This document shows positions 24,764 through 51,411 of a stretch of 64,000 nt of DNA, piece after piece; position 1 is the first letter of the stretch, and every line of letters begins with the position of its first letter. This DNA is from Halorussus amylolyticus (GTDB lineage: Archaea > Halobacteriota > Halobacteria > Halobacteriales > Haladaptataceae), in NCBI RefSeq assembly GCF_004143485.2, contig NZ_RXOB02000032.1:1-64000 (forward strand). Direction: 5' to 3'. The notes beneath the pieces were generated by a model. That model did no database searches. It was not told the DNA's origin and saw nothing but the letters and a program-made list of their open reading frames with translations. The translations under genes and the position numbers were made by a program.

Positions 24764-25957
24764 TTAGTCACCCGCGAGCGACTCCTGACTCGCGGCGCAG
24801 TTGTTCGGCCCGAGTTCGAGCGTGAACGCCTCGTCGTCGTCGACGGCGTTCTGACCGAGGTTCGTCGCGATGATGTCCTCGTAGTTGGCGGGCCGCGGCG
24901 GCATGTCCGAGAGGATCAGGTCGACGAAGTCGTCTTCGTCCATCGTCAACGCGTCCATCTGCTCGACGAGGTCGCCGACCGGTGCCGTGTAGGTGCCGTC
25001 GTCTGCGGGGACGGCGGCGTCGCTGAAGTGCGCCCCGCCGACGAGGGTGTCGTCGGGAAGCGTCAGCACGCGTTCCTGGAGCGACTCGTAAAGCATGCGC
25101 GCCGCGTCAGGCGCACCATCGTCACCTTCTTCGAGGTCGGGGCGAGCGACGCTCTCGATGAAGAGGCCGTCGCCGGTCGCGAGCAGGCTGTCGTCGATGA
25201 GATACGAGGTCATGCCTGTGGTGTGTCCGGGCGTGAACACCGTCTCGATGGTGGCGTCGCCGACCGCGAAGGTGTCGCCGTCGGCGGCTTGGGTGACTTC
25301 GTCGGCGTAGGTGACGCCGCGGTCGACGGCGGCCTCGGGGATGACGCCCTCGACGCCGCGCTCGTCGAGCGCGCGGACACCCGAGATGTGATCGGCGTGG
25401 ACGTGCGTGTCGATTGCGTACTTCAGGTCGACGCCCAGGTCGTCGGCGTCTTCGAGATACCGGTCGGTGAACGCTCGGAGCGGGTCGACGATGGCGGCTT
25501 CGCCGTCGTCGTAGACGAGGTACCCCAGGCATCCGCTGGACGGGCGCTGGTACTGGAGGAGCGTGCCCGCACCGTCGTAGTCGGTGACCTCGACCGCTTC
25601 GTAGATGCTCGCCCAGCCGTTCATGCCGTCTTCGAGGTGGTTGACGTCGTAGCCGCGTTCGGCGAGTTCGCCCGCGACGTATTCGCTGGCACCACCCTTC
25701 GCGCACAGGACGGTGACCTCGCGGTTGTCGGGAATCTGTGCGAGGACGTCCTGGTCGATGTCGTCGTCGAGGAATTCGAAGTACGGGGCGTTGATCGACG
25801 TGACGTTCTCGCCGTCGATGTGCCACTCTTCGTACTCGGATTGCATGCGTGCGTCGAGTAGCGTGATGTTCTCGCCGGCGTCGATTCGTCCTTTCAGTTC
25901 GTCCGGAGCGATCGTCTCGATCGGCACGTCCGGAGTCGGGAAGTCGTCTGCGTTCAT
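24764..25957 (-). CDS. Rhodanese-MBL fusion, persulfide dioxygenase-like
   Basis: A 397-residue cytoplasmic protein. Residues 12-125 are a rhodanese domain with active-site Cys85 (CAKGGAS). Residues 135-380 are a metallo-beta-lactamase domain with THVHADH (184-190), TPGHTTG and TGDGLFIESVARPDL. This matches the iron-binding set of ETHE1-type persulfide dioxygenases. A Cys143 in SSGCLGYLV begins the MBL part, and the C-terminus has LELGPNNCAA. It probably moves and oxidises persulfide sulfur (GSSH-like or protein-bound) to sulfite. First gene of the operon ending at 22618; a TATTGC site lies upstream. Confidence 0.9.
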   Translation of the reverse strand: MNADDFPTPDVPIETIAPDELKGRIDAGENITLLDARMQSEYEEWHIDGENVTSINAPYFEFLDDDIDQDVLAQIPDNREVTVLCAKGGASEYVAGELAERGYDVNHLEDGMNGWASIYEAVEVTDYDGAGTLLQYQRPSSGCLGYLVYDDGEAAIVDPLRAFTDRYLEDADDLGVDLKYAIDTHVHADHISGVRALDERGVEGVIPEAAVDRGVTYADEVTQAADGDTFAVGDATIETVFTPGHTTGMTSYLIDDSLLATGDGLFIESVARPDLEEGDDGAPDAARMLYESLQERVLTLPDDTLVGGAHFSDAAVPADDGTYTAPVGDLVEQMDALTMDEDDFVDLILSDMPPRPANYEDIIATNLGQNAVDDDEAFTLELGPNNCAASQESLAGD

Positions 25958-26010
25958 TGTGTGCGTCTGGACCTACTGGCTGGCCCACCATAAAGATTTG
26001 CATAGTATAT

Positions 26011-26026
26011 TCAGAACAATGCAATA
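26011..26026 (-). promoter_or_regulatory. Candidate regulatory site upstream of rhodanese-MBL operon
   Basis: TCAGAACAATGCAATA on the plus strand. A CAGAA-N(4-5)-CAATA pattern recurs at 29018-29031 and 31681-31694. It lies about 55-70 nt before the start at 25957. Confidence 0.35.
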
Positions 26027-26133
26027 CTGTTATGGGCTGATGTTGCGTCACCTGCATATAGGGCGTTTTCACTGGTGTTTCGGACGGGAGCGAGGACGCA
26101 GTAATTGGTGGTTGGTGCAAGAACCGATATCCT

Positions 26134-26164
26134 TATAACGGACTAAACGGTATTGTGCAATAGC
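26134..26164 (+). promoter_or_regulatory. Promoter and operator of the tusA-dsrE2 operon
   Basis: A TATA box CTTATAAC at 26134-26141 is followed by the near-palindrome TATTGTGCAATA at 26153-26164, between the box and the expected transcription start. A protein bound there would block initiation. The motif matches sites at 20088 and 21535. Confidence 0.5.
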
Positions 26165-26194
26165 TCCAATACAGATCAACGGAGCAGATAACCA

Positions 26195-26440
26195 ATGAGT
26201 GCAGAATTCGACATTACGGAGACGCTAGACGTGAAAGGTGCATCGTGCCCAATGCCCGTCGTCAAGACGAAGAATGCCACCGACGACCTCGAATCCGGTG
26301 AGGTTCTCGAGGTGCTTTCGACGGACTCGGGCAGTATGAGTGATATCGACGGCTGGGCGTCCGGGACCGAGGGCGTCGAACTCCTCGACCAGGTCGAGGA
26401 CGGCGACGTGTACAAACACTACGTCCGCAAGACGGAGTAA
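26195..26440 (+). CDS. TusA-family sulfurtransferase
   Basis: An 81-residue TusA/SirA-like sulfur carrier. The family CPxP motif is intact (ASCPMPVVKT, Cys18), so a persulfide can form on Cys18. Sulfur-relay TusA proteins pass persulfide to partners such as DsrE. The gene is 8 nt before dsrE2, the common archaeal and bacterial arrangement in sulfur oxidation. Confidence 0.9.
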   Translation: MSAEFDITETLDVKGASCPMPVVKTKNATDDLESGEVLEVLSTDSGSMSDIDGWASGTEGVELLDQVEDGDVYKHYVRKTE

Positions 26441-26448
26441 CGATAACG

Positions 26449-27021
26449 ATGAGCACGGACACGCCCGATGTGACGGCTGACGACGCTCCCTCGCGCGCGG
26501 AACTCGCCGCACGAATCGAGGAACTCGAGGAGTCCCTCGCCGAGGCGACCGGCGAGGACGACACGAAGAAGATGAGCATCATCGCGACGAAGGGGACGCT
26601 TGACATGGCGTACCCGCCGCTGATCCTCGCCAGCACCGCCGCCGCGTTCGGCTACGAAGTAAATGTCTTCCACACGTTCTGGGGGTTGGACATCCTCCAC
26701 GAGGAGCGTTCGAAGAACCTCAAGCTGAGTTCCGTTGGGAATCCCAACATGCCGGTGCCAAACGCTGTCGCCGCGCTCCCTGGGATGGACCGCGTGACGA
26801 CGAAGATGATGGAGAAGAAGATCGCCGACAACGACACGGCGACCATCGAGGAACTCATCGAGATGAGCCTCGATATGGGCGTGGAGTTTCAGGCCTGCCA
26901 GATGACGATCGAGTTGATGGACTACGACGAGAACGACTTCTACGACGGCGTCACTACGGGCGTCGGCGCGGCTACCGCCCTGCAGGATATGGCCGACGCT
27001 GACATCCAACTCCTCGTCTAA
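26449..27021 (+). CDS. DsrE2-like (DsrE/DsrF/DrsH family) sulfur-carrier protein
   Basis: A 190-residue protein with a charged, probably coiled-coil N-terminus (15-40). A DsrE/F-like alpha-beta domain follows (IIATKGTLDMAYPPLILAS). A conserved Cys150 in EFQACQMT is the likely sulfur acceptor. In this family a nearby hydrophobic loop may contact the membrane. It forms an operon with tusA and probably exchanges persulfide with TusA. Confidence 0.9.
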   Translation: MSTDTPDVTADDAPSRAELAARIEELEESLAEATGEDDTKKMSIIATKGTLDMAYPPLILASTAAAFGYEVNVFHTFWGLDILHEERSKNLKLSSVGNPNMPVPNAVAALPGMDRVTTKMMEKKIADNDTATIEELIEMSLDMGVEFQACQMTIELMDYDENDFYDGVTTGVGAATALQDMADADIQLLV

Positions 27022-27079
27022 CGGACGACTCGAACGTTTCTGGAGCCGTTTCGAAGGTTGCGCCGAGAACCGAGATTTT

Positions 27080-27493
27080 TCAACAGCTCTTGCAGTTCCG
27101 ACGCTGGTAATACAACAGTCCGGCGAAGAGGACGACGCTCACCGCGCCGAGCAGGGGTCGGAGCGGGTCGAAGTACGTCATGAGAGCGGACGAACTGAAG
27201 AGTGCGAGCAATACGGCGTTACAGATCGGACAGCCGAACGCCAGAAACCCGCCGACGACGCTCCCGGCCGCGAACCGATCCCCCACTGGCTTCTCTGCGA
27301 GGGAACGCTGGTAGACGAACGCCCCGGCGAACGCCGACGTCGCGACGAGAAACAGGTAGTCGGCCGGCGTACGGGGAACCATCCGGACGTAGACCGGGTT
27401 CGACAGGAGCCCGGTCACTGTTCCGAACAGCAGGAAGACGCCGACGGCGACGCCCACACTTCGGAGGCGTCGCGTGCGAGTCGGGGACATCAT
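27080..27493 (-). CDS. Small membrane protein with GCPxC motif
   Basis: A 137-residue protein with about four membrane helices. In the third predicted helix is FGCPICNAVLLALF, and the C-terminus ends YYQRRNCKSC. It is related to the neighbouring 27578-28126 protein: both have G(V/F)LA-x-GCxxC-x-A-x-x-LxAL. Two pairs of Cys suggest redox or metal chemistry at the membrane. Third gene of an operon after a DsbA-like protein. Family function unknown. A start one codon in (27490) is possible. Confidence 0.72.
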   Translation of the reverse strand: MMSPTRTRRLRSVGVAVGVFLLFGTVTGLLSNPVYVRMVPRTPADYLFLVATSAFAGAFVYQRSLAEKPVGDRFAAGSVVGGFLAFGCPICNAVLLALFSSSALMTYFDPLRPLLGAVSVVLFAGLLYYQRRNCKSC

Positions 27494-27577
27494 CCGCTTA
27501 CCGTAGTCCGACGGCCCTTAGTAGTGTTGAATCTTGTGGACTCTCTGCATGCACTTTCGAGTGACGACACACGGCCG

Positions 27578-28126
27578 TCATGGCCGGTTGTCGATTCCGC
27601 ACGTTCGCGGATCCCCGGCTCGCCCGAGGAAGAACGCCAGGAGGAGGATGCCGCCCAGCCGCAGGAGGTTCCCGTCGAACGGGAGCGCAGCCATCGCGCC
27701 GACGAAGCCGAGCGCCCCGAGGACGCCCGCACCGCAACTGGCACAGCCCGCGGCGAGCACCCCCGGCACGACGCCCGCGAGCGTCGACGCACTCGTGCGT
27801 CGCGCTCGCCGGACCAGCGCGGCGGCGTTGGTCACCGCGATTCCGGTCAGGAGCGCGTACGCCGTCACGAGGCCGACGCCGAGCCAGCCCGTGCTCAGGT
27901 ACGTCTCCCGCGTGAGGGCGGTGACGGCGTAGCCGATGTCGGTCGGTGACCTCGCGAGTACCTGCATCGAGAACTGCGGGAACGCGCTCAGCACGGTGAA
28001 GACGTAGGTCGCTCCAGTCACGAGACCGGCGACGGCCAGACGCCGGTTCGACGTGAGCGGGTAGGCGAGGGCGTCCCGGAGGTCTCGCGTCCAGTCGCGG
28101 GCCACGGTCGTTCGATTCCCGGTCAC
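27578..28126 (-). CDS. Membrane protein with GCxSC motif, paralog of downstream gene
   Basis: A 182-residue membrane protein with about five helices. Near residue 135 is LAAGCASCGAGVLGALGF, and a third Cys (RTCGI) is at the end. The GTG start at 28126 is set by a 4-nt overlap (GTGA) with the DsbA-like gene; longer frames upstream are antisense-like and Arg-rich. Operon order is DsbA-like, this protein, the GCPxC protein. Possibly a partner of the DsbA-like protein in thiol or metal handling. This is inference. Confidence 0.74.
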   Translation of the reverse strand: MTGNRTTVARDWTRDLRDALAYPLTSNRRLAVAGLVTGATYVFTVLSAFPQFSMQVLARSPTDIGYAVTALTRETYLSTGWLGVGLVTAYALLTGIAVTNAAALVRRARRTSASTLAGVVPGVLAAGCASCGAGVLGALGFVGAMAALPFDGNLLRLGGILLLAFFLGRAGDPRTCGIDNRP

Positions 28127-28860: not shown

Positions 28861-29017
28861 GAATGTCCAATTGTATACGATACCGACCGAAGGGTTTTTC
28901 GGTCGCGCAGCTCACGAAATTCGGCCGTGCGGTCCGTCACCGTCGACGAGGTAGTCGTCGGAACGTGGTCGGCGCACCGGTCACAACGATTTTACCAAAG
29001 GGCACCAGAGTCTTGCT

Positions 29018-29031: not shown

Positions 29032-29051
29032 TAGTCTAGGGCCAGCCGACG

Positions 29052-30133
29052 ATGATCCCCGACGAAGTCGTAGCACGGCGCGACGGCGACCTGTTCGTCC
29101 TCGACGTTCGCAACGAGGACGACTTCGAGGAGTGGCGCGTAGTGGGCAGCTACAACGTCCCGATCTACGACCAGTTGCTCGACGATGACTTCACCGGTTT
29201 GAAGGACTCGCTGGACGAGATTCCCGAGGACGAGGAGACCGTCGTGGTGTGCGTCGCCGGCGTCACGTCGGTCGACGCTACCGAGTTCCTCCGCGAGCGA
29301 GGCTACGACGCCAAGTCGATGGAAGACGGTATGGACGGCTGGGGCCGCGTCCACGTCGCGTACGAGGTCGAGGACGCCGATGGCGTGGTCCAGATCGTCC
29401 GGCCCGGAACGGGGTGCGTCTCGTACCTCGTCCACGACGGCGGCAAGGGGGACCGTCGTCGACCCAAGCCTGTATCTCGACGAGTACCGCCCACTCGCCG
29501 CCGAGCGCGACGTCGAACTCGTCGGGGCGGTCGACACGCACGCCAATCCCGACCACGTCAGCGGCGGTCGCTCCTTCGCGGACGACCTCGACGCGCCGTA
29601 CTACCCCAATCCGGCTGACGGCAGCGAACTCGACAAGTACGACCCGCTCGAAGACGGCGACAGCGTCGCGGTCGGCGCCCGCGACCTGGAAGTGCGCCAC
29701 ACGCCGGGTCAAACTCCCGGAAGCGTCTCGCTGGAGTGGGGCGACGCCCTGCTCTCGGGCGACACGCTGTTCATCGACAGCGTCGGGCGGCCCGACCTCG
29801 AAGGGAACGACGAGATGGACGTGCGCGAGGCGGCCGAGGAATTGTTCGACAGCCTCGCCGAACTCGGTGACTTCCCCGAGAGACGGTCGTCCACCCCGGC
29901 CACTTCTCCGCCGAGGACCTGCGGCCGCTCTCGACGTCGCTCGGGCGGGTCGAGGAGACCAACGAGCTGTTCGGGATGGCAGACTGCGAGGCGTTCGTCG
30001 ACACCATCGTCGAGAGCCTCTCGGACGAACCGGCCAACTACAACCAGATCAAGGCCATCAACTGGGGAAAGGAACCGCTGACGGGCGACGTCACGGACCT
30101 CGAACTCGGCCTAACAACTGCGCCGCGAACTAA
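29052..30133 (+). pseudogene. Rhodanese-MBL fusion with three frameshifts
   Basis: A third-type copy of the persulfide dioxygenase-like family. The first frame gives a rhodanese domain with Cys67 (VVCVAGVTS) and RPGTGCVSYLV. Three single-base indels break it: an extra G in the run at 29447-29451, a lost base near 29878-29882 in CCGAGAGACG, and a lost C near 30108-30111. Correcting these gives THANPDH (the metal motif has Asn in place of the second His), GDTLFIDSVGRPDLEGN, VHPGHFSAED and a final LELGPNNCAAN. Either a recent pseudogene or assembly errors in homopolymers. The intact length would be about 360 residues. Confidence 0.82.
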
Positions 30134-30287: not shown

Positions 30288-31643
30288 TTATTTCCCGTCG
30301 TCCAGCCGTCCGCCGAGTACCTTCGCTGCGGTTAAAATGGGGTCCCAGACGGGGCTGAACGGCGGCGCGTACGCGAGGTCGAGATTCTGGAGGTCCTCGA
30401 CGGTGAGTCCGGCGTGGAGCGCGGTGGCGACGGTGTCGATGCGCTTGGCTCCCTCTCGACCCACGACGCTCGCACCCAGCACTCGCCCCGTGTCACGGTC
30501 CGCCACGAGGTGGACGGTCAGTTCCTCGGAGCCAGGGTAGTAGTTGGCCCGCGATTCGTCCGTGATTGTGACCGAGACCGGGTCGAAACCGGCCTCGCGG
30601 GCGGCCGACTCGTCGAGGACCCCGGTTCGGGCCGCGCCGAGGTCGAACGCCTTGACGATGGCGGTTCCGGCGGTTCCGCCGACCTCGGTCGGCTCGCCCG
30701 CGACGGTCTGGCCGATGGCGCGACCTGAACGGTTGGCCGTGAGCGCGAGTGGAACGTGGTCCGGTTCACCGGTGACGACGTTGGTAGCTTCCGCGCAGTC
30801 GCCGGCCGCGTAGACGTCGGGCGCGGTCGTCCGGCCGTGCTCGTCGGTGGCGACAGCCCCGGTCGGTCCGAGTTCGATGCCCGTGTCGGCCGCCAGTTCA
30901 GCGTTCGGCTCGACGCCGACCCCGACGATGGCGAGGTCTGCGGACACGCCCTCGTCGTCGAGGTCGACGGCCTCGATCCGGCCGCTCCCCGCGAATCCTT
31001 CGACCGCGGTCTCCAACCGGACGTCTACGTCCTGCTCGCGGAGGTGCTCCTCGACCGCTTCTCCGACCACGCTACCGAACGGCTGGAGGACGTGGGGTAA
31101 CATCTCGAAGAGGGTGACGGACAGCCCGCGTCCCGACAACGCCTCCGCCATCTCGACGCCGACGTAGCCACCACCCACGACGGCGGCGGTCTCGGGGTCG
31201 TGCCGGTCGAGGAATTGGTCGATAGCGTCCGCCTCGTCCATGTCGTGGATGGTGAACACGCCGTCGAGGTCCATCCCGTCGAACGGCGGCCGGATGGCGC
31301 TCGCCCCGGTCGCGATCAGGAGGTGATCGTAGGGCTGTTCGAAGCGCTCGTCGTCGGCCGAGACCGTGACGGTCTTCGCGTCGGTATCGACCGCGACGAC
31401 TTCGTGGCGCGTCCGGAGGTCGACGTCGCGCCCTTGGACGAACTCCTCGGGCGTCACGGACACGAGGTCGTCGAGTTCCGCGACGTCGCCCTTGACGTAG
31501 TAAGGCATCCCACAGGCTGCGTAGGACACCCACTCGCCCTTCTCGAAGACGACGACGTCCAGTTCCGGACTTTCGCGTTTTGCCTTGCTTGCAGCGCTCA
31601 TACCGGCCGCGTCTCCGCCGACGATGACGAACGTCTCTCCCAT
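30288..31643 (-). CDS. CoA-disulfide reductase / FAD-dependent pyridine-nucleotide oxidoreductase
   Basis: A 451-residue flavoprotein. N-terminal FAD site (VIVGGDAAGMSAASKAKR), catalytic Cys44 in SYAACGMPYY, NAD(P)H site (VVGGGYVGVEMAEAL), FAD-ribityl motif (VYAAGDCAE), and a C-terminal dimerisation domain ending near YAPPFSPVWDP. This matches CoA-disulfide reductases and CoA-dependent NADH:sulfur or persulfide reductases. In this region it could reduce CoA persulfide or CoA disulfide and so release sulfide. It has no rhodanese tail, unlike some bacterial forms. Confidence 0.9.
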   Translation of the reverse strand: MGETFVIVGGDAAGMSAASKAKRESPELDVVVFEKGEWVSYAACGMPYYVKGDVAELDDLVSVTPEEFVQGRDVDLRTRHEVVAVDTDAKTVTVSADDERFEQPYDHLLIATGASAIRPPFDGMDLDGVFTIHDMDEADAIDQFLDRHDPETAAVVGGGYVGVEMAEALSGRGLSVTLFEMLPHVLQPFGSVVGEAVEEHLREQDVDVRLETAVEGFAGSGRIEAVDLDDEGVSADLAIVGVGVEPNAELAADTGIELGPTGAVATDEHGRTTAPDVYAAGDCAEATNVVTGEPDHVPLALTANRSGRAIGQTVAGEPTEVGGTAGTAIVKAFDLGAARTGVLDESAAREAGFDPVSVTITDESRANYYPGSEELTVHLVADRDTGRVLGASVVGREGAKRIDTVATALHAGLTVEDLQNLDLAYAPPFSPVWDPILTAAKVLGGRLDDGK

Positions 31644-33684: not shown

Positions 33685-35184
33685 TTAGACGTACTCGAAG
33701 ACGCGAGCCATCCCTCGTTCCAAGTGATAGTTGTTGTGACAGTGGAAGAGCCAGTCGCCGGGGTTGTCCGCTATGAAGTCGAACGAAACCCGACCTCGGT
33801 GGGGCGGGACGAGGACGGTGTCCTTGACCGCGTCGCCGACCTGGAAGAAGTGGCCGTGAAGGTGCATCGGGTGGATCGCCGGACTAAGGTTCACCATCCG
33901 AACCCGGATATGCTCGCCCTCGCTGATCTCTAGAGGGTCGGCGTTCGGGTACACTTGGCCGTCGATGGTCCACGCGCCGGGTTCCCGCATCATCCCTCCC
34001 GAGAGGGTGAGGTCGAACGTCCGGTCGGGTGTGCCGTCAACGTCGAGCGGTTCGAGCGCCCTGAGGTCGCCGTACTGGAGCGTTCGACCGTCGAACTGCG
34101 GTCGTCCGGCAGAACCGGTCCCGCCTGCGTCATCGTACCGCAGTATCGTTTCCGCAGGCCGCTCGTTTCCGACGACCGGCACCGCAACGATGGTCCAGTC
34201 CCCGGGGGAGTCGGCTTCGACGATCGCGTCGTAGCGTTCGCCCATGCTGATGTGGAAGGAGTCGACCTCTACCGGTTCGACCGGCCGCCCGTCGGCGTGC
34301 GTAACCGTCATGGAGTGCCCGCCGACGCCGACGCGGTACGTCGTGGCGCCGCTCGGATTGATAAACCGCAGTCGGACGCGCTCGCCTTCTTCGACTTCGA
34401 ACACGGGCGGGTTCGAGGGGAGGCGCCCGTTGACGACCATCCCTTCGTACGGGGGACGGCGGCCCTGCATCGGACCGCCACCTCCCATTCCGCCGTTCCG
34501 GCCTCCCCCGCCGGGGCCGGGTCCGCCACCATCGCCACCACCGTCCCGGCCTCCCCCGCCGGGACCGGGTCCGCCACCATCGCCACCACCACCTCTCCCG
34601 GGTGGCGCTTCGATAGAGTCGAGTACCGGGTCGCCAGCGAGGTAGTCGTCGACGACTAACGTGTACTCCCGGTCGTATTCGACGTGGGGCGACTCCTCCT
34701 CGACGATCAGTGGCCCATTGAGTGCTCTGTCGAGTTGGAGTCCGACGTGGCTGTGATAGACGTACGTGCCCGCTGGCGACGCTTCGTACTCGTACGTGAA
34801 CGTCTCGCCGGGCGGGACCGGGTCCTGCGTGACGTTCGGAACGCCGTCCATCGGATTCGGGACGGGAACGCCGTGCCAGTGAACGGTCGTTTCCTCCGGC
34901 AACCGATTCTCGACGGTGACCCGAAGCGTGTCACCCTCGCTCACGCGGAGTTCCGGTCCGGGATACCGGTCGTCGTACAGCCACGTGCTGCCGGCCTCGC
35001 CCGGTGCTACCTCGGCCTGTCCTTCTTTGGCCACCAGCGTCATGTCCTGTCCGTCCTTTCGTGACTCGGCGACGGACCCCGGGTTACCCGCACGCACTCC
35101 CCTACTTCCTGCGATTCCCACCAGTGCCGCGCCTCCGACGCGCAATACACTCCGTCGTGATACGTTCCTGTCGTTGCTGTTCAT
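33685..35184 (-). CDS. Multicopper oxidase, exported
   Basis: A 499-residue secreted laccase-like oxidase. The signal has a twin Arg (SRRSVLRVGGAALVG, 9-23). Copper ligands: HWHG (102-105), HSH (144-146), HPMHLHGHFF and HCHNNYHLERGM with the type 1 Cys-His and axial Met. Three cupredoxin domains are expected. Between domains 1 and 2 is a Gly-Pro-rich stretch of about 50 residues made of two 16-residue repeats (48-bp DNA repeats at 34502 and 34550). It may oxidise Cu+ or phenolic or sulfur compounds. The ATG at 35184 gives the signal peptide. Confidence 0.92.
   Translation of the reverse strand: MNSNDRNVSRRSVLRVGGAALVGIAGSRGVRAGNPGSVAESRKDGQDMTLVAKEGQAEVAPGEAGSTWLYDDRYPGPELRVSEGDTLRVTVENRLPEETTVHWHGVPVPNPMDGVPNVTQDPVPPGETFTYEYEASPAGTYVYHSHVGLQLDRALNGPLIVEEESPHVEYDREYTLVVDDYLAGDPVLDSIEAPPGRGGGGDGGGPGPGGGGRDGGGDGGGPGPGGGGRNGGMGGGGPMQGRRPPYEGMVVNGRLPSNPPVFEVEEGERVRLRFINPSGATTYRVGVGGHSMTVTHADGRPVEPVEVDSFHISMGERYDAIVEADSPGDWTIVAVPVVGNERPAETILRYDDAGGTGSAGRPQFDGRTLQYGDLRALEPLDVDGTPDRTFDLTLSGGMMREPGAWTIDGQVYPNADPLEISEGEHIRVRMVNLSPAIHPMHLHGHFFQVGDAVKDTVLVPPHRGRVSFDFIADNPGDWLFHCHNNYHLERGMARVFEYV
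34502..34594. repeat. 48-bp direct repeat within the multicopper oxidase gene
   Basis: Two near-identical 48-bp units begin at 34502 and 34550 (CCTCCCCCGCCGGG-CCGGG...). They encode Gly/Pro/Asp-rich residues in a linker. In-frame slippage can change the linker length. Confidence 0.7.
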
Positions 35185-38496: not shown

Positions 38497-39834
38497 ATGA
38501 GCGAACTTCGAGACCGAACGTCGTGGGAAGAACCGAACGACGTCGAGGTGGCCGCCGCCGGAATCCGGTCGACCGCGACCGAACTGACGAGTCCGGCGGA
38601 CTTAGACGACCTCGTTGCCGACCTCGGCGACGACCGGTACGTCCTTCTGGGGGAAGCGTCTCACGGGACCTCCGAGTTCTATCGGTGGCGTGCCCGACTG
38701 ACCGCTCGACTCGTCGAGGAACGGGGGTTCGATTTCGTCGCCGTCGAGGGCGACTGGACCGACTGCTACGCAGTCAATCGCTACGTACGGGGGCTTCCAG
38801 ACTCGGGCGAGACCATCCGCGGGGTGCTGGAGGCGTTCGACCGCTGGCCGGCGTGGATGTGGGCTAACTGGGAGATGGTGGAGTTTCTCGAATGGCTCGA
38901 CCTTCACAACGAACAGCGACCCCGAGACGAACGCGTCGGTTTCTACGGCATGGACGTGTACAGCCTGTTCGAGTCGATGGACGCTGTCGTCGATTATCTC
39001 GAAGACGTAGACTTCGAAGCCGCCGAGGAAGCCGAGAACGCCTATCGCTGTTTCGAACCGTACGGTGAGGACGCCCAAGAGTACGCGCGAGCGCTTCGGA
39101 TGGTACCCGAGACGTGTGAGGACGAAGTCGTGGACATCCTGTCTCGACTGCGAGCGAGCACGCCGAAGTACGACACCGACGACGAAGAAGACTACTTCAA
39201 CGCCGAGCAGAACGCGCTGGTCGCCAGAAACGCCGAGCGCTACTATCGGGAGATGGTCAGTGGCGACACCGACTCGTGGAACGTCCGAGACAGGCACATG
39301 TTCGAGACATTAGAGCGTCTCACTGACCATCACGGGCCGAACGCCAAGGGTATCGTCTGGGCGCACAACACCCACGTCGGGGACGCGCGAGCGACGGACA
39401 TGGAAGAACGCGGCCGACTCAACGTCGGCCAACTCGTCCGCGAGCACCACTCCGGAGACGTGTCGTTGGTCGGGTTCGGGTCCCATCGGGGAAGCGTCAT
39501 TGCGGCCGATTCGTGGAACGCCCCGATGGCGGAACTCCCCGTCCCGCCGGCCCAGGCGGGAAGCTACGAACACGCGTTCCACCGCGCGGGCGACCGAGAC
39601 TGGCTCCTCCAGATGGACGACCTCGACGCTGAAACGGCACTCGCCGAACCGCGAGGGCACCGCGCTATCGGCGTGGTCTACCATCCGCAGCGTGAGTCCG
39701 GAAACTACGTGCCGACGGTGCTTCCCCAGCGATACGACGCGTTTCTCCACATCGACGAAACGCAGGCTCTGCATCCCCTCGACGTCCACGTGGACCGCCA
39801 AGCCGTCCCCGAACTCTACCCGTGGGGGCTGTGA
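38497..39834 (+). CDS. Erythromycin esterase family protein
   Basis: A 445-residue member of the erythromycin esterase/succinoglycan biosynthesis family. The motifs LLGEASHGTSEFYRWRARLT and VAVEGDWTDCYAVNRY, then WAHNTHVGDARAT, carry the catalytic His and Glu residues of the group. In haloarchaea it is probably a general hydrolase; antibiotic resistance is not implied. Last gene of a cluster with CBS and antitoxin-like genes. Confidence 0.88.
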   Translation: MSELRDRTSWEEPNDVEVAAAGIRSTATELTSPADLDDLVADLGDDRYVLLGEASHGTSEFYRWRARLTARLVEERGFDFVAVEGDWTDCYAVNRYVRGLPDSGETIRGVLEAFDRWPAWMWANWEMVEFLEWLDLHNEQRPRDERVGFYGMDVYSLFESMDAVVDYLEDVDFEAAEEAENAYRCFEPYGEDAQEYARALRMVPETCEDEVVDILSRLRASTPKYDTDDEEDYFNAEQNALVARNAERYYREMVSGDTDSWNVRDRHMFETLERLTDHHGPNAKGIVWAHNTHVGDARATDMEERGRLNVGQLVREHHSGDVSLVGFGSHRGSVIAADSWNAPMAELPVPPAQAGSYEHAFHRAGDRDWLLQMDDLDAETALAEPRGHRAIGVVYHPQRESGNYVPTVLPQRYDAFLHIDETQALHPLDVHVDRQAVPELYPWGL

Positions 39835-40652: not shown

Positions 40653-41942
40653 TTAATCATCCGGCGCGACTTGCTTCGGTGTTTCTGTGGCAGGTGCCGG
40701 TGGTTCGTGAGTCCCGAAGTCTGGATGGGTCTCTTCCATCCAGACGTACACGACAGCCCCGGAGAGGAACATCAGAATCGCAGTCACGTAGAAGGCGGCC
40801 TCGGCGTTCACGAACTCCATCGAGAGGCCAATCACGATTGCGCCGACGCCGTAGCCAGCGTCGCGCCACATCCGGTAGACGCCCATTCCTGCCGACCGCC
40901 ACGTCGGGTGGGCCGCGTCACTGGGGACGGTCATCAGGTTCGGGTAGAGCAGTGCCATCCCGAGTCCTGAAACTCCGGCCAGGGTTACCCACTGAAGGTA
41001 GCTGTTGACGAACACCATCCCGAGGACGCCAGCCCCCGCGAGGAACATCCCCGCGACGACCGGCGGACGTCGTCCGATGCGGTCGGCGAGGCCGCCGGTC
41101 CCGATCTGGAGGAAGTACATCGCGCTGTGGACGCCGACGACGAGGCCCACGGCTTCGATAGCGAGTCCCTGACTCGTGAGATAGAGCGGGACGGCGATCC
41201 AGAACAACGTATCCACGAAGTTCTCGATGTGGCCAGCTTGCGCCGCCGCGAACAACGTCTTGTCGCCGTAGGTCGCTCGCTTCAGGACTTCGTTGAACGG
41301 GAGGTTCGCGTCGTGGTGGTCGTCATCGCCCTCCAGTCGTGCGAGTTGGACCGTCTCTTTGATGAGAAAGACCGAGATGAGGAACGCCAGCACTACCACA
41401 GCCGCGAGGAAGTAGAACGGCTCCGGCCGGAGATTCGTCTGGCCGGCGATGACGCCCGTGATCCACGCTCCCGCGGCGACGCCGGTGTACCCGAACGCCT
41501 CGTCGATGCCAACAGCGAGCCCGCGTTGGTCTGGGCTCGCGAGATCAATCTTAGCGTTGATCGCCATGCTCCAAGTCAGCGCCTGATTGACACCTAGCAG
41601 GACGTTCCCGACGGTGATCCACGCCCAACTCGGCGCGAAGATGAGAATCACCGGGATCGGCAGCGCGGTGATCCAGCCGAGAACGAGCACCGGCTTGCGT
41701 CCGTACTCCTCGCCCCATTTGCCGGCGTAGAGGTTGAGCAGCGCCTTGACGAAGCCGAAGGAGACGACGAACGAGCCGATGACGAAGAACGACTCGACGC
41801 CGAGTACCTCCTCGCCGAGAACGGGAACGACGGTCCGCTCCGAGCCGATCGTCAACCCCGTCGCGAACACGAGCAGGACGTGCAGCGAGAACTGCCCAAG
41901 GTGTTCACGGATTCCCTGTTTCAGGTCAGTTTTCCCAGTCAT
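40653..41942 (-). CDS. MFS transporter
   Basis: A 429-residue permease with 12 predicted helices. The loop 2-3 motif is AGKWGEEYGRKPVLVLGW; the corresponding motif in the second half is GGLADRIGRRPPVVAGM. A hydrophilic loop with a His-rich DDDHHDAN stretch lies between the halves. It starts 3 nt after the stop of the rhodanese-MBL gene at 41946, so the two are co-expressed. A role in export or uptake of a sulfur compound is possible. Confidence 0.88.
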   Translation of the reverse strand: MTGKTDLKQGIREHLGQFSLHVLLVFATGLTIGSERTVVPVLGEEVLGVESFFVIGSFVVSFGFVKALLNLYAGKWGEEYGRKPVLVLGWITALPIPVILIFAPSWAWITVGNVLLGVNQALTWSMAINAKIDLASPDQRGLAVGIDEAFGYTGVAAGAWITGVIAGQTNLRPEPFYFLAAVVVLAFLISVFLIKETVQLARLEGDDDHHDANLPFNEVLKRATYGDKTLFAAAQAGHIENFVDTLFWIAVPLYLTSQGLAIEAVGLVVGVHSAMYFLQIGTGGLADRIGRRPPVVAGMFLAGAGVLGMVFVNSYLQWVTLAGVSGLGMALLYPNLMTVPSDAAHPTWRSAGMGVYRMWRDAGYGVGAIVIGLSMEFVNAEAAFYVTAILMFLSGAVVYVWMEETHPDFGTHEPPAPATETPKQVAPDD

Positions 41943-43147: not shown

Positions 43148-43882
43148 ATGAGCCTGTACGAAGCCTCGTTCCGGGTGAAACACGAGTGTCCCTATCGGGA
43201 AGTATCCGAACGGTATCCGGACCTCACGATACGCGAGTGGTACTTGAGCGACTGTCAGGTGCTCGAAATCACTTCCACGGGAACCCCGACGGACGACTTG
43301 CTCGACGAGATCGATAGTCTGGGAACGATTCTTCACCGGTCGGTTGACGATTCCGGGTTACACGTCGTTACGCAGTCCTGTCTCTGCTCGCTCGAAGGGT
43401 CGATAATCGACCGGTTCGAAGAGTACAACTGTCTCTACCAACCGCCGACGATTCACCGACAGGGCTGGGAGCACTACACGGTAATCGCGTTCGACGAGTC
43501 TGACGTTCGAGCGCTTATCCGGGACCTGGAATCCGAACGGGATATCGACGTACTTTCGAAGACCGCTATCGCGGAACAACAGATTCCGCACAGTATGTTA
43601 GCTCCCGTTGATCGACTCTTCGAAGACCTTACCGACCGACAACTGGCGGCACTTCGGTTGGCTCTCGAAAGCGGCTACTACGAACAGCCCCGAAAGACGT
43701 CGCTACGCGAGTTGGCCGAGCGAACGTCCATAGCTCGGTCGACGTACGAGGAACACCTTCGGAAAGCGGAGAACAAACTCCTCACGAACGCGGGCGAGTT
43801 CTTACGGTTGGTGACGGCAACTTCCTCGGGAGACCCACTGCACGTCGATCAGCCAGAGCTGTCCGAACAGAGCGCTGACTGA
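43148..43882 (+). CDS. HTH_10 (bacterio-opsin activator-like) transcriptional regulator
   Basis: A 244-residue regulator. The N-terminal part (1-155) is a sensor-like domain with Cys residues (CPYREVS, SDCQVL, SCLCSLEG). The C-terminal HTH_10 domain covers about 160-225: LTDRQLAALRLALESGYYEQ, then KTSLRELAERTSIARSTYEE. The clustered Cys residues could sense oxidants or sulfur species. The gene diverges from the rhodanese-MBL gene and may control it. Confidence 0.87.
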   Translation: MSLYEASFRVKHECPYREVSERYPDLTIREWYLSDCQVLEITSTGTPTDDLLDEIDSLGTILHRSVDDSGLHVVTQSCLCSLEGSIIDRFEEYNCLYQPPTIHRQGWEHYTVIAFDESDVRALIRDLESERDIDVLSKTAIAEQQIPHSMLAPVDRLFEDLTDRQLAALRLALESGYYEQPRKTSLRELAERTSIARSTYEEHLRKAENKLLTNAGEFLRLVTATSSGDPLHVDQPELSEQSAD

Positions 43883-44281: not shown

Positions 44282-44972
44282 GGCCGTGTTCAACTAAGAG
44301 TGAGGCGGTCGTGCTTCGGTTGTTCTATGACCCAAAACGGCCGCCTCAGATGTCCTAGTCCGTAGATTGACCTGGAGTTTGTGGAGCGAGAGCGGACACC
44401 CCGGCCTGCAATTGAGGTGGGTATTCGCCTCCACTTGGCGGGACTTTCACTTTCGAATACCAAACGAGAAATTGAGAAGTTGGGTGTCGAACGGAGTCGC
44501 ACTGCGATTCATAATTGGGTGCAGAAGACCGATTTACAGCCGACCAGCGATACGATTCCGAATCAGATCGCGGTTGACGAGACGGTGATTCGGGTCACTG
44601 GTGAGCGGTGCTGGCTGTACGCCGCGGTCAACCCGGCGACGAACGAATTCCTTCATTCTCAGCTGTTTCAGGCGCTCACGACTCAGCTCACTCTGCTGTT
44701 CTTCAGAGACCTCCGCGAGAAACAGCAGGTCGAGCAAGCCACGTTTCTGGTTGATGAAGCCCATCACCTCCAGACCGCGCTGACCCGGCTCGGACTCCGA
44801 TTTCAGTATATTCGCCATGGAAATCGGAATAGCGTCGAACGTGTTTTCCGCGAGGTAAAACGGCGAACCTCCTCGTTTTCGAATGCGTTCCGCAACGTCG
44901 AGCTAGAAACCGCTGAATCGTGGCTCCAAGCCTGCGCCGTCTGGCACAATTCATGCCAAACTTAACACGACC
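44282..44972 (+). mobile_element. IS6-family insertion sequence
   Basis: The ends are imperfect inverted repeats: left GGCCGTGTTCAACTAAG (44282) and right GGGTCGTGTTAAGTTTG read inward from 44972, with GG-CGTGTT shared. The length is about 691 bp, short for IS6 but typical of haloarchaeal ones. I see no target-site duplication at the flanks. It lies between the DsrE gene and a small membrane-protein gene. Confidence 0.75.
44381..44965 (+). CDS. IS6-family transposase, probably N-terminally damaged
   Basis: A 194-residue DDE transposase. HTH part: LHLAGLSLSNTKREIEKLGV. Catalytic residues: VDETVIRV (Asp), FLVDEAHHL (Asp) and VERVFREVKRR (Glu). Related transposases begin about 20 residues earlier; here an in-frame TAG stands at about 44358, so translation would start at the GTG at 44381. 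Activity is uncertain. Confidence 0.82.
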   Translation: MERERTPRPAIEVGIRLHLAGLSLSNTKREIEKLGVERSRTAIHNWVQKTDLQPTSDTIPNQIAVDETVIRVTGERCWLYAAVNPATNEFLHSQLFQALTTQLTLLFFRDLREKQQVEQATFLVDEAHHLQTALTRLGLRFQYIRHGNRNSVERVFREVKRRTSSFSNAFRNVELETAESWLQACAVWHNSCQT

Positions 44973-44997
44973 CGGTACGTACAGCAAGGTATCAGAG

Positions 44998-46058: not shown

Positions 46059-46089
46059 GCAAGTACACCAGCGGATCGAGGTGGGGGAG

Positions 46090-47025: not shown

Positions 47026-47226
47026 ATGTCACTTGCAGAAACAGTGTCCAAGATCGACCATCTGAGCGAGGAAGAGCGCGAGTGCATCGAGATTTGCAAT
47101 GAAGCCACTGAGGTCTGTGAGGAGTGTGCCGAAGAATGTGAGCGTCACGATGCCCAGCACTGCCAGGTCTATGCCGAGGTCCTCACGGAATGCACCGAGA
47201 GCTGTCGGAACATGATGAGTGCCTGA
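47026..47226 (+). CDS. Cys-rich four-helix-type metal-binding protein (DUF326-like)
   Basis: A 66-residue acidic protein with eight Cys (20, 24, 31, 34, 38, 46, 56, 60) in the CIEIC-NEATEVCEECAEECERH pattern. It is typical of DUF326 / Csp-like copper-storage proteins, in which helices line up Cys to hold Cu+. It is shorter than most bacterial forms (about 110), so it may assemble as a multimer. It is in line with the copper genes downstream. Confidence 0.8.
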   Translation: MSLAETVSKIDHLSEEERECIEICNEATEVCEECAEECERHDAQHCQVYAEVLTECTESCRNMMSA

Positions 47227-47335
47227 CCGACGCCCGAATAGCGCACGAATTAGCACCGTTGCGACGCTGTTTTTTGGCTACAACCGCTGTATCGAGGGGA
47301 CCCGGAATCCTCGCACAGAGGACAGCCGAACGCGG

Positions 47336-48121
47336 TTAGAGTTCCGGAACCGACGTGAACAGCAGGACGAACGCGTTCACGGTCAGTAGCGCGAGCACGA
47401 CCCACTGGAAGATGCGCTCGGGGATGTGGTCGAAGATGTACACGCCGACCCAGGCACCGACGAACACCATCGGAATAGCGACGGCAGCCTCGATCATCAG
47501 CGGCGTCGTCACGTCCCCCGTGTAGGTGAGACTCCCGAGGCGGTACAGCATGAGCGTCCCGAAGAAGGCGGTGAACGTGGCCTTCATCTCCTCGTCGGTC
47601 CAGAACCCACTTGCCGACATGAAGGCCCCGTAGACGATCATCGGCGGGCCGGGGACGGCGACGGCGCCGCCGAGAATCCCCGCAAGCAGCCCGGCCGTCG
47701 CGCCAATTATCTTCCCCGGTCGGTAGTCCTTCTCCTCGATCCAGTCCGTGACGACATCGAGTTGCTGGGTCGCGCCGACGACGATGACCGCTAACACGAG
47801 AACCGCCCCGATGGCGACGCGCATCTGTGCCGCGTCGAACCCACTGAACACGACGATGCCGAGCGGCATCCCGACGACGAGCCCGCCAACAGGAACGATC
47901 CACTTCTCCCAGTCGAACGCGTCCCGGACGCTCCACCAGACGCGGGCGTTGGCCACCACCGCCGTCGCCGTGAAGATGATCGACGCGCTCGAGGGCGACC
48001 GAAACAGCGGCATTATGCCCATCGACACCTGCGCGAAGCCGAACCCAGCAATACCGTGAACAGCGGCTGCGACGAGGATGACGACCGCAGACAACCCTGT
48101 CGTCACCCAGTCGCTCGTCAT
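47336..48121 (-). CDS. TauE/SafE family sulfite exporter
   Basis: A 261-residue membrane protein of the TauE/SafE family, shorter than the 20225 copy. Motif parts: VHGIAGFGFAQVSMGIMPLF, and GLLAGILGGAVAVPGPPMIV in the second half. The start at 48121 removes a 21-residue polar extension. It lies beside the SoxB-like gene and so may export sulfite or sulfonate. Confidence 0.85.
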   Translation of the reverse strand: MTSDWVTTGLSAVVILVAAAVHGIAGFGFAQVSMGIMPLFRSPSSASIIFTATAVVANARVWWSVRDAFDWEKWIVPVGGLVVGMPLGIVVFSGFDAAQMRVAIGAVLVLAVIVVGATQQLDVVTDWIEEKDYRPGKIIGATAGLLAGILGGAVAVPGPPMIVYGAFMSASGFWTDEEMKATFTAFFGTLMLYRLGSLTYTGDVTTPLMIEAAVAIPMVFVGAWVGVYIFDHIPERIFQWVVLALLTVNAFVLLFTSVPEL

Positions 48122-48404
48122 CGATACCGCCTCCACGAGCGGGTCAGTGGGCGCATCTCGATAGCGACTACCATGTCTTCCCACCTAAGCGTACTTGCAG
48201 CCGAGAGCCGACAGAGAGCGTCCTCGGCCAGATACCACGGTCTCGCTCGGGCTAAGCGCGTGTCTGTGTGCCACTGAGAGCGTGTGTCTCGGCCGTGGCG
48301 CCCGGTTTTCTTCGAGACGGGGCACGTAAACGGTCTTTTGCGGTATTTCCGACACTAGCCACAATCCATGAACAGGAGGAGCGCGTATCTACACTCCCGC
48401 CACG

Positions 48405-50186
48405 ATGAACGATACCAAGGCACTCGGCGAGTGGACGTCCCTCGGTGGCGACCCTGTCAGTGACGGTACGGGTCCCCCCGACGCGGTCTTCGCCCACGTC
48501 AGTGACCTCCACGGACAGCTGACGCCGCGCTCCCAGGTCTACTACGACAATCCGACGTCGAAGCCGGACTTCGACTTCGAAGACGACGACCGCGTCGTCG
48601 AGTGCGGCGGCGGGATACCCCTGCTCGCGGCCAAACTCGACGAACTCCGTGAGGACCACGACGTCTGTACGCTCATGAGCGGCGACACGTTCCACGGCTC
48701 CGCCGTGACCACCTACACCGACGGGCGAGCGATGCTCGACCCCATCAACGAATACCTCGCGCCCGATGTCTACGTCCCCGGTAACTGGGACTACTCGAAC
48801 GAAGCCGCCGAGGACGGCAACTTCGTGGAACTAATGGACGCGCTCGACGCGCCCGTCCTCGCGAACAACCTCTATGACTGGGAGACCGACGAGCGGTTGT
48901 ACGACGCCTACCGGGTCCTCAAGGTCGGTGGCCTCTCCGTGGGCGTCGTCGGCATGACGAACGTCTACGTCGACCGGATGGCGCCCGCGTTCTCCGAAGG
49001 AAAGTACCGCTTCGGCAAGCACCCCGCACTCCTCGAGGAGTCCGCACGCGCCGCTCGCGAGGACGGCGTGGACGTCGTGGTCGCGGTCACCGAGATCGGC
49101 CTCCCGTGGATGGTCCAGGCGGCCAAGGACTCTGCGAGCGTGGACGTGGTGTTCAGCGCGCACACCCACGAGTACACCTACGACCCGATCGTCGTCGAGG
49201 AGACCGAGACGGTCGTCGTCGAATCCGGCATGGGCGAGGCGCTCGGCCGCGTGGACCTGCGCGTTCGGGACGACGAGCTGCAGTTCCGACACCACCTCTA
49301 CTGTCTGACCGAGGACGGCGAACACACGCCCGAGCCGGACGCCGACGCGGCGGAGACAGTCGAATCGGTGCGTGCGCCCTTTTTCGAGGACGACCCGGGG
49401 TTCGAGCGAGGGGCGGGCACGCTCAACCGTCCGCTGGATACGGTCGTCGGCCAGACGGAGCACCCGCTCTACCGGCAGTCCTTCCTCGAGAGCGCGTGGA
49501 ATACGCTGTTCAACGACGCGCTCCGCGCTCACTTCGACACCGACCTCGCCGTCTCGCACGGGTTCCGGTACGGGACTGCCATCCCGCCGGGTGACATCAC
49601 GCTCGGCGAGCTGTACACGTTCTTCCCGATGACGACGCCCGTCGCTCGCGGTGTCGCCTTCGGCCAGCAACTTACGAACCACATGGAGGCGTTCCTTCAG
49701 GACAACTTCTCGCCGTACCCCTACGACCAGGAGGACGGTCGCGTCCGGAACTTCTCCTCGAACGTCGAGGTGACCCTCGACCCGACGGCCCAGCGCGGCC
49801 GCCGCCTCGTCGAGATGCAGGTCGACGGCGAGCCGGTCGACCCGGAAGACACGTACTCGGTGGCGACGTTCCGCCGGCCCGGCGACCCCGAGCGCGACCT
49901 CGGCAACTGCGGGTTCCCGTTCCAGGACGTCGAGGTCGACGACGGGACGATACCGGTCGACGTCATCGTCGAGTACCTCTCGGACCACTCGCCCGTCGAC
50001 TACGAGGTGATGGGGCTGGTCGAGACCGCAGACGACGGCGGTCGAGCCCAGAACACGCCCGCAGACGGGACGTACCCGTTCGTCCAGCCCGGCGTCGACT
50101 ACGCTGACGGCGAGGCGTACTGTGAGACAGCCATGGTTCCGCGCGAGAACGTTTTCCCCGAAGAGGGGCGTAATCGAACGCGCTAG
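48405..50186 (+). CDS. SoxB-like / 5'-nucleotidase-family metallophosphatase
   Basis: A 593-residue two-domain protein. N-terminal metallophosphatase: FAHVSDLHGQL, LMSGDTFHGSA, VPGNWDYS (in place of the usual GNHE) and VFSAHTHEY. The W-D pair in place of His-Glu resembles SoxB (GHWEF), and the PAFSEGKYRFG segment resembles SoxB as well. The C-terminal domain (from about 330) is a 5'-nucleotidase C-terminal fold. No signal peptide is seen, so it probably acts in the cytoplasm. It might release sulfate from a sulfur carrier, or dephosphorylate nucleotides. Sequence alone does not settle it. Confidence 0.72.
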   Translation: MNDTKALGEWTSLGGDPVSDGTGPPDAVFAHVSDLHGQLTPRSQVYYDNPTSKPDFDFEDDDRVVECGGGIPLLAAKLDELREDHDVCTLMSGDTFHGSAVTTYTDGRAMLDPINEYLAPDVYVPGNWDYSNEAAEDGNFVELMDALDAPVLANNLYDWETDERLYDAYRVLKVGGLSVGVVGMTNVYVDRMAPAFSEGKYRFGKHPALLEESARAAREDGVDVVVAVTEIGLPWMVQAAKDSASVDVVFSAHTHEYTYDPIVVEETETVVVESGMGEALGRVDLRVRDDELQFRHHLYCLTEDGEHTPEPDADAAETVESVRAPFFEDDPGFERGAGTLNRPLDTVVGQTEHPLYRQSFLESAWNTLFNDALRAHFDTDLAVSHGFRYGTAIPPGDITLGELYTFFPMTTPVARGVAFGQQLTNHMEAFLQDNFSPYPYDQEDGRVRNFSSNVEVTLDPTAQRGRRLVEMQVDGEPVDPEDTYSVATFRRPGDPERDLGNCGFPFQDVEVDDGTIPVDVIVEYLSDHSPVDYEVMGLVETADDGGRAQNTPADGTYPFVQPGVDYADGEAYCETAMVPRENVFPEEGRNRTR

Positions 50187-50262
50187 ACGGCGACGCACGC
50201 GAACAGCTGCGTAGAGCGACGATCTCGAAGGACACCACACGACACGACACAGGTGAGACACG

Positions 50263-51411
50263 ATGGTCAAGAACATCACTGCGGAACAACTCGCGAACAA
50301 GATCGACTCGGACGAACAGTTCACGCTCGTCGACGTGCGCCCCGAAGACAGTTACGAGGCCTGGCACGTGCGCGACGCAGGGAACGTTCCGTATGACCCT
50401 GACGAGGGCTTGAACGAGGATCAACTGAACGGGGTGAACGCGCTGGTCGACGGCCAGCCGGTCGTCGCTATCTGTGGCAAAGGCCTAACGTCGACGCCGT
50501 TCGCGTTCGACCTCGAGGAGCACGGCTACGACGACGTCTCGGTCGTCACCGGTGGGATGGAGGAGTGGAGCAAACTCTACGAGGTCGTCCCCATCGAGAC
50601 GTCCAGCGACGACCTCGTCGTTCGGCAGGTTCAGCGCCGAGCGAAGGGCTGTCTCGGCTACGTCGTCGGCTCGAAAGAGGCAGAGGAGGCCGTCGTGGTC
50701 GATGCGACCAGACAGACCAATCAGTTCAAAGTCGCCGCCCAGGACGCCGGGCTCTCCATTTCGCGTGTGCTCGATACGCACGTCCATGCCGACCACATCT
50801 CAGGCAGTCCGGCACTCGCCGACGAGGTCGGCGTGCCCTACCACCTCGGCGATGGAGCCAGCGAGCGCGGTGTCGAGTACGAATACGAACCGCTAGCAGA
50901 TGGAGACGTCATCGAAGTCGGCAACATCGAGGTCGAGGCGTTCCACACGCCCGGGCACACCTCGGAGATGATGAACTACCTCGTCGACGGCGAACTCCTG
51001 TTGACGGGCGATACGCTGTTCGTCGACTCCGTCGGACGGACGGAACTCCAGTTCGGCGAGGACGACGCCTCCCGTGGAGCAGAACTACTGTACGACTCGC
51101 TCCACGAGACGATCCTCGAGCTCCCAGGTGACACAACGATCCTGCCGGGTCATCTCACCGTTACGAGCGACGGCCGCTATGAGAACGGCCCTCCGGGCGA
51201 ACCCCTCGAGGTCCGGCTCGGGGACCTCCGCGACGAACTCGACTTCCTCGGGCTGGACCGCGACGCGTTCGTCGCTCGCCTGACCGAGGACGCCCCGGAG
51301 AAACCCCCGAACTACGAGGCAGTCATCGCCATCAACACCGGCAAAGAGACCGTCGGCGACGAGAACGAGGCGACCGAACTCGAACTGGGGCCGAACAACT
51401 GTGCCGCGTGA
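50263..51411 (+). CDS. Rhodanese-MBL fusion, persulfide dioxygenase-like
   Basis: A 382-residue protein. Rhodanese domain with Cys71 (AICGKGLTS). MBL domain from RAKGCLGYVVGS, with THVHADH, HTPGHTSEM, TGDTLFVDSVGRTEL and ILPGHLT. The end is LELGPNNCAA. The gene follows the SoxB-like gene after a 76-bp gap on the same strand, suggesting cooperation. Its 3' end overlaps the start of the broken multicopper oxidase gene by 11 nt. Confidence 0.9.
   Translation: MVKNITAEQLANKIDSDEQFTLVDVRPEDSYEAWHVRDAGNVPYDPDEGLNEDQLNGVNALVDGQPVVAICGKGLTSTPFAFDLEEHGYDDVSVVTGGMEEWSKLYEVVPIETSSDDLVVRQVQRRAKGCLGYVVGSKEAEEAVVVDATRQTNQFKVAAQDAGLSISRVLDTHVHADHISGSPALADEVGVPYHLGDGASERGVEYEYEPLADGDVIEVGNIEVEAFHTPGHTSEMMNYLVDGELLLTGDTLFVDSVGRTELQFGEDDASRGAELLYDSLHETILELPGDTTILPGHLTVTSDGRYENGPPGEPLEVRLGDLRDELDFLGLDRDAFVARLTEDAPEKPPNYEAVIAINTGKETVGDENEATELELGPNNCAA

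Follow-up and report, generated by a model that had tools for sequence, protein, structure and literature searches.

The window, a stretch of 64,000 nucleotides of DNA from Halorussus amylolyticus (contig NZ_RXOB02000032.1, positions 1 to 64,000), carries four genes, at 24764, 29052, 41946 and 50263, for proteins with an N-terminal rhodanese domain and a C-terminal metallo-beta-lactamase (MBL) domain. The haloarchaeal source genome is 3.78 Mb in size. Three of the window copies are intact (A, C and D); the copy at 29052 (B) is broken. Each intact copy is probably a rhodanese-first persulfide dioxygenase (Rho-PDO; PDO, persulfide dioxygenase), with the subfamilies fed by different partners and with a tail cysteine acting together with the cysteine of a GC(L/V)xY motif. 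Judged by sequence, the haloarchaeal proteins are new members of a known enzyme type. The set is characterized by its domain order, its predicted catalytic and metal residues, three fixed cysteines and conserved neighbours. No description of the three-cysteine signature or of haloarchaeal members was found in the open-access literature; the signature and the subfamily structure are newly described here.

Domain order, active sites and three cysteines

A Pfam search of the open reading frames places Rhodanese (residues 6–117) before Lactamase_B (128–310) in copies A, C and D. The original prediction of four rhodanese-then-MBL copies, the one at 29052 frameshifted, is confirmed in this respect. 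The HxHxDH motif of the C-terminal, PDO-like MBL domain is present in the intact copies and not in copy B. Two further intact copies lie outside the window, at C2:405472 (near copy A in sequence) and at C6:155600 (a fifth subfamily).

All five intact copies in the genome hold exactly three cysteines: the rhodanese cysteine, the GC(L/V)xY cysteine and the tail cysteine. In copy D, whose numbering is used below, the first is C71, from the active-site loop of the rhodanese; the second is C130, within GCLGY on MBL strand 1; and the third is C380, within the tail ELGPNNCAA. For the GC(L/V)xY motif the copies have GCLGY (A and D), GCVSY (B) and GCLSH (C); a cysteine of GC(L/V)(G/S)Y type had been predicted at the start of the MBL part, and it is found there. 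The tails read LELGPNNCAA (24764 and 50263), VELGPNRCAA (41946) and, split between frames, NNCAAN (29052). C71 and C130 occur in every one of 165 distinct haloarchaeal homologues, and C380 in all but one. A lack of the tail cysteine in most close homologues was looked for and not found, and the common tail noticed at the outset (LELGPNNCAA or near it) is conserved more strongly than had been claimed. The lone homologue without C380 (L201) ceases to match after residue 349 and has unrelated C-terminal sequence, apparently through a frameshift. All three cysteines are kept in 28/28 clusters of homologues at 60% identity, and 105 of the 165 homologues contain exactly three. Residues 361–372 vary freely, whereas E374, G376, P377, N378 and C380 are nearly fixed. 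Conservation of the tail cysteine in this alignment is far beyond chance, because C380 is retained in 164/165 while the residues just upstream change freely.

The AlphaFold2 model of copy D has a mean pLDDT of 92.8 and a pTM of 0.91. Its top structural matches are 3tp9 (Z 30.7, 2.2 Å over 246) and 3r2u (Z 30.3), both MBL-rhodanese proteins. Persulfide dioxygenases match with similar scores: ETHE1 4chl (Z 29.8, 1.6 Å over 229), 5ve3 (Z 29.1) and 4ysb (Z 29.0). Glyoxalase II (Z ~21) is well below both groups. All 165 sequences have HxHADH, H173, H232, D250, R259 and H297 unchanged, and either D or E at position 261. The predicted His/His/Asp iron ligands and the R-x-D/E second shell of the ETHE1-type persulfide dioxygenase are present (H173, H232, D250 and R259, 165/165). 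In AcPDO, replacement of the matching Arg or Asp leaves 0.4–1.5% activity (PMC6060420). The tail of the copy D model has a pLDDT of 73 for residues 371–380 and 53 for 381–382; in structure prediction without the rhodanese half the tail block scores 78, vs 73 with it. Since tail confidence is not lowered when the rhodanese domain is left out, placement of the tail is predicted to be independent of that domain; the predicted docking site of the tail is the MBL part.

The coding sequence of copy B runs through three frames. When these are followed in turn, DTHANPDH stands in place of the metal motif DTHxHADH, with loss of the second His, and PGQ in place of PGH, the lost His being a predicted Fe ligand. 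Every one of the 165 other haloarchaeal sequences keeps both of these His. Because these two active-site residues are gone, besides the frameshifts, copy B reads as a decayed pseudogene. A sequencing slip as the sole cause of the breakage is ruled out by the same two losses. Intact relatives of copy B are present in other genomes (subfamily B, 8 loci).

At least one copy is present in 33/33 Halobacteriales genomes sampled, and no genome of that order is among the non-matching genomes listed. Bacterial homologues were sampled from plasmids only. Rhodanese-first homologues were found there in Bacillota (Cytobacillus, Geobacillus, Mesobacillus, Paenibacillus, Cohnella, Niallia, Priestia, Sporosarcina, Lysinibacillus), in Haliscomenobacter (Bacteroidota), in Rhodococcus jostii (Actinomycetota) and in one record labelled Stenotrophomonas; C130 and the tail cysteine are present in 14/14 of those examined. 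Matches in Rhodococcus opacus and Paenarthrobacter that apparently reached the tail turned out to be MBL-first and without the tail cysteine. At the C130 position, MBL-first proteins have His or Gln (24/24, including 20 archaeal ones from the same phylum), Ser or Thr is found in three stand-alone MBL proteins, and Ser in one Blh; none of these has the GPNxC tail. C130 and the tail cysteine are both absent from all 28 MBL-first, MBL-only and Blh proteins examined. A tree of MBL domains (FastTree), as proposed with the original prediction, unites all rhodanese-first proteins, haloarchaeal and bacterial, in a single clade with a support of 0.986, to which no MBL-first or MBL-only protein belongs. 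In the sample, the two extra cysteines are perfectly associated with an N-terminal rhodanese, yet this pattern is one of long-term constraint and not of repeated co-evolution, since the tree gives the rhodanese-first clade a single origin.

Subfamilies and conserved neighbours

Copies A, C and D are 36–41% identical to each other and fall in separate, well-supported clades; copy B and the C6 copy fall in two further clades. The haloarchaeal set comprises at least five subfamilies. That the four copies are recent tandem duplicates of redundant function, as their position within 27 kb might suggest, is extremely unlikely: the degree of identity, the placement of each copy in its own supported clade across many genera and the possession of own neighbours rule this out, and the tree refutes it. 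Subfamilies A, B and C are clustered within 8–18 kb also in Halobacterium noricense (L131) and in L162; several copies close together are therefore a recurrent arrangement. The earlier view of four copies in 27 kb as unusual is not upheld, as paralogue clusters recur in other haloarchaea and copy B is a pseudogene. It had also been suggested that the copies differ in substrate; of this, different roles gain support, because the copies represent separate old subfamilies, each with its own conserved gene partners.

Neighbours were counted within 4.6 kb of each locus, by clade (Table 1). In subfamily A, the YeeE-type transporter gene and the DUF6691 gene are located downstream, on the same strand as the Rho-PDO gene. 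The true start of the DUF6691 gene is probably downstream of the first start listed. In Rhodococcus jostii, DsrE2-TusA genes are divergent from the Rho-PDO gene. Bacillota Rho-PDO have TusA, DsrE2, TauE and a metal-sensitive-type regulator as neighbours. The Rho-PDO gene of Haliscomenobacter is followed, 10 nt downstream, by an MFS gene. On plasmids of Cupriavidus, Janthinobacterium and Azotobacter (L127, L212, L214), a stand-alone MBL gene is followed by an MFS gene homologous to that of copy C, and rhodanese or DsrE is encoded nearby as a separate gene, giving a split version of the fusion.

The product of 48405–50186, upstream of copy D, stays below the SoxB threshold, its TIGR04486 score being 203 bits vs a cut-off of 550. 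No match to a SoxY partner was obtained in the genome, and control genomes gave no match either. A multicopper oxidase gene is located downstream in 9/42 subfamily D1 loci. Downstream of copy D, at 51483–51743, there is a remnant multicopper oxidase (last 86 amino acids only), at the place where Halobacterium sp. DL1 (L130) has an intact oxidase gene; a separate, intact multicopper oxidase gene is present in the window at 33685–35076. Members of subfamily D3 (Halorubrum, e.g. L108–L126) are ~40 residues longer than copy D, with the extra residues apparently upstream of the MBL HxHADH. Around the C6 subfamily, none of the YeeE, DUF6691, TusA, DsrE2, MFS, HTH_10, SoxB-like and multicopper oxidase neighbours was found within the same distance.

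Other genes of the region were also noted. Between copies B and C, at 30288–31643, a CoA-disulfide reductase-like flavoprotein is encoded (460 bits, under the cut-off of 578.8), possibly a persulfide or disulfide reductase. A short transposase-like open reading frame is located inside the sulfur gene island at 44381–44965. An erythromycin-esterase family protein (Pfam 4e-129) is encoded in the same region at 38497–39834.

Table 1. Rho-PDO copies of the window, codons of the three cysteines in copy D, and neighbouring genes.
Feature	Position	Strand	Evidence and remarks
Copy A, Rho-PDO, 397 aa	24764..25957	-	Pfam Rhodanese 18-117, Lactamase_B 145-310; Cys 85 (rhodanese), 143 (GCLGY), 387 (tail); subfamily A
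Copy B, Rho-PDO pseudogene	29052..30133	+	Three frameshifts; fragments nearest subfamily B (66% identity)
Copy C, Rho-PDO, 370 aa	41946..43058	-	Pfam; Cys 72, 129 (GCLSH), 367 (tail); subfamily C
Copy D, Rho-PDO, 382 aa	50263..51411	+	Pfam, AlphaFold2 model; Cys 71, 130 (GCLGY), 380 (tail)
Codon of rhodanese Cys71, copy D	50473..50475	+	From protein numbering; residue invariant, 165/165
Codon of Cys130 (GCLGY), copy D	50650..50652	+	From protein numbering; residue invariant, 165/165
Codon of tail Cys380, copy D	51400..51402	+	From protein numbering; residue in 164/165
YeeE/YedE-type thiosulfate/sulfur transporter half, directly downstream of copy A	24264..24755	-	Pfam Sulf_transp, weak NCBIfam TsuA match; adjacent in 29/30 subfamily A loci
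DUF6691, second YeeE/YedE half	23809..24471	-	Pfam DUF6691 3e-19; near 29/30 subfamily A loci
TusA sulfur carrier, divergent from copy A	26195..26440	+	Pfam TusA 3e-20; 26/30 subfamily A loci
DsrE2-like sulfur carrier, divergent	26449..27021	+	Pfam DrsE_2 2e-52; NCBIfam DsrE2 164.6 bits, under the 210 cut-off; 26/30 subfamily A loci
MFS transporter, 3 nt downstream of copy C	40653..41942	-	Pfam MFS_1 7e-45; adjacent in 9/9 subfamily C loci
HVO_A0563_N / HTH_10 regulator, divergent from copy C	43148..43882	+	Pfam; 9/9 subfamily C loci
SoxB-like metallophosphoesterase / 5'-nucleotidase-family protein, upstream of copy D	48405..50186	+	TIGR04486 203 bits; directly upstream in 18/42 subfamily D1 loci

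Proposed mechanism and alternatives

We infer the enzymatic activity, the substrates, the metal and the role of the two extra cysteines as follows. The rhodanese cysteine (C71) would take sulfane sulfur from thiosulfate or from a TusA/DsrE-type carrier and hand it on as a persulfide, which the ETHE1-type iron site of the MBL domain would oxidise to sulfite. The sources or exits of sulfur would differ, with copy A beside the YeeE-type importer and TusA/DsrE2, copy C beside the MFS exporter-like protein, and copy D and its relatives often beside the SoxB-like hydrolase. The tail, ~20 residues long and ending in GPNxC, would dock on the MBL domain, and its cysteine may cooperate with that of GC(L/V)xY, either in a redox pair or as the final thiol ahead of the iron site. 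The route from thiosulfate through persulfide to sulfite is drawn by analogy with the coupled activities of Blh, in which the N-terminal sulfurtransferase moves sulfur from thiosulfate to glutathione and the dioxygenase oxidises the persulfide to sulfite (PMC5823870). Taken together, the enzyme set probably strips sulfur from thiosulfate and oxidises it to sulfite; the copies are most likely thiosulfate/persulfide-oxidising fusions fed by different partners. Four proteins with sulfite-oxidase-type molybdopterin domains are encoded in the genome (C4:260130, C4:216625, C3:42055 and C3:307448), and oxidation of sulfite to sulfate is a possible next step.

Several points weigh against this scheme. 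Position 261 is Glu in two thirds of the members, vs Asp in ETHE1-type enzymes. Co-occurrence of C130 and C380 counts as one evolutionary event, in a single-origin clade, and not as many. A low-molecular-weight thiol acceptor in haloarchaea is assumed, and no assay of any member of the rhodanese-first family was found in the open-access literature. Gamma-glutamylcysteine is commonly taken to fill the role of glutathione in haloarchaea.

A glyoxalase II-like or other hydrolase in place of the persulfide dioxygenase is quite unlikely for the MBL domain. Binuclear-site residues are retained and the top NCBIfam score is that of GloB (TIGR03413), but its 58–79 bits are far under the cut-off of 200.8 bits, structures of persulfide dioxygenases match clearly better (Z ~29–31 vs ~21), the R-x-D/E signature is invariant, and the neighbours are sulfur-oxidation genes. 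With the domain taken as a persulfide dioxygenase, the two extra cysteines may be explained in more than one way. They may have a structural or redox-regulatory role as a pair, forming a disulfide that fastens the tail to the MBL domain and switches activity, and never carry sulfane sulfur themselves. This is quite conceivable, if somewhat short of an even chance, given their joint absence from MBL-first, MBL-only and Blh proteins, the docking of the tail on the MBL part predicted without help of the rhodanese, and the surface pair C87/C224 of AcPDO, near the C-terminus, which partly forms a disulfide and in which both residues are essential (PMC6060420); however, the restriction of the pair to proteins with an N-terminal rhodanese suggests a connection with sulfur transfer.

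The idea of the original prediction, in which the tail cysteine is a mobile third thiol ferrying persulfide from the rhodanese cysteine to the iron site, appears doubtful. The tail cysteine is near-invariant, the tail is confined to rhodanese-first fusions, and a short conserved C-terminal GPNxC of moderate pLDDT (73 and 53) is compatible with some mobility; set against this are the independence of tail confidence from the rhodanese domain and the example of Blh, which couples both activities without a tail, so that a low-molecular-weight thiol can perform the transfer (PMC5823870). A wider version is unlikely: the three cysteines would form a relay (C71 to C130/C380 to the iron site) that oxidises sulfane sulfur on the protein's own thiols without a free low-molecular-weight thiol, with different paralogues drawing on different donor proteins (YeeE-TusA-DsrE2, SoxB-like, MFS-linked). 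For C130/C380, a redox or structural pair is given a slight edge over a relay replacing a free thiol, because the tail of the model appears to sit on the MBL part and Blh manages without a tail.

Comparison with known systems

Although Rho-PDO of cable bacteria and Bacillus are listed as uncharacterised, the type is present in every Halobacteriales genome sampled (33/33) and in three or more bacterial phyla. The three-cysteine signature offers an easy way of telling Rho-PDO from MBL-first fusions by sequence, and it names two residues to mutate. Neighbours of the subfamilies (importer with TusA/DsrE2; MFS with regulator; SoxB-like protein) offer testable donor and exit routes for haloarchaeal thiosulfate/persulfide oxidation. 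No haloarchaeal study of persulfide dioxygenase or of thiosulfate/persulfide oxidation was found in the open-access literature.

BpPRF and ETHE1 (type I PDO) share with the Rho-PDO described here the MBL fold, the Fe ligands and the R-x-D/E signature. ETHE1 differs by the absence of a rhodanese, BpPRF by a C-terminal one. ETHE1 C247 aligns near copy D residue 360, ~20 residues before the tail cysteine, and is probably not the same residue; ETHE1-type matches end at model residues 363–366, ~15 residues before the tail cysteine, and a counterpart relationship of the two is unsupported (both distances taken from range end points only). CstB and other MBL-rhodanese proteins (3r2u, 3tp9) have the closest MBL domain by structure (Z ~30) and are expected to have the same two activities. 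They differ in that the MBL domain comes first and the rhodanese after, an order not found in the proteins described here, and in the His or Gln at the C130 position and the absence of the GPNxC tail (24/24). The rhodanese-first order had been contrasted with that of MBL-first CstB and PRF; it is not unusual, as Rho-PDO are known (PMC13047784) and Blh is sulfurtransferase-first (PMC5823870).

Blh (DUF442-ETHE1, NF040641) has the sulfurtransferase domain first and the dioxygenase second (PMC5823870). The blh gene of Pantoea adjoins TauE, YeeE, DUF6691 and DsrE genes, much like the surroundings of copy A. Blh differs in having DUF442 and not rhodanese at the N-terminus and in the absence of C130 and of the tail; the haloarchaeal proteins score 44–56 bits against NF040641, vs a cut-off of 625.

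The name Rho-PDO was given to rhodanese-first fusions of cable bacteria, Desulfobulbales and Bacillota, which were described as uncharacterised (PMC13047784). YrkH (Bacillus licheniformis/subtilis) has been described as 'likely a second PDO' of unknown function, and in B. licheniformis its gene shares an operon with genes for DsrE, a rhodanese, TusA and TauE (PMC9918477); YrkH appears to belong to the rhodanese-first family, judging from the operon match on Bacillus plasmids and not from the YrkH sequence. Rho-PDO of Bacillota and cable bacteria share with the haloarchaeal proteins the N-terminal rhodanese followed by a PDO-type MBL domain. The Bacillota members read have C130, the GPNxCA tail and TusA/DsrE2/TauE neighbours, and form one clade with the haloarchaeal members. 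Rho-PDO of cable bacteria differ in having HXQADY instead of HxHxDH (PMC13047784). The haloarchaeal set is distinguished from bacterial Rho-PDO by its partners, which are YeeE/DUF6691, MFS with HTH_10, and SoxB-like proteins.

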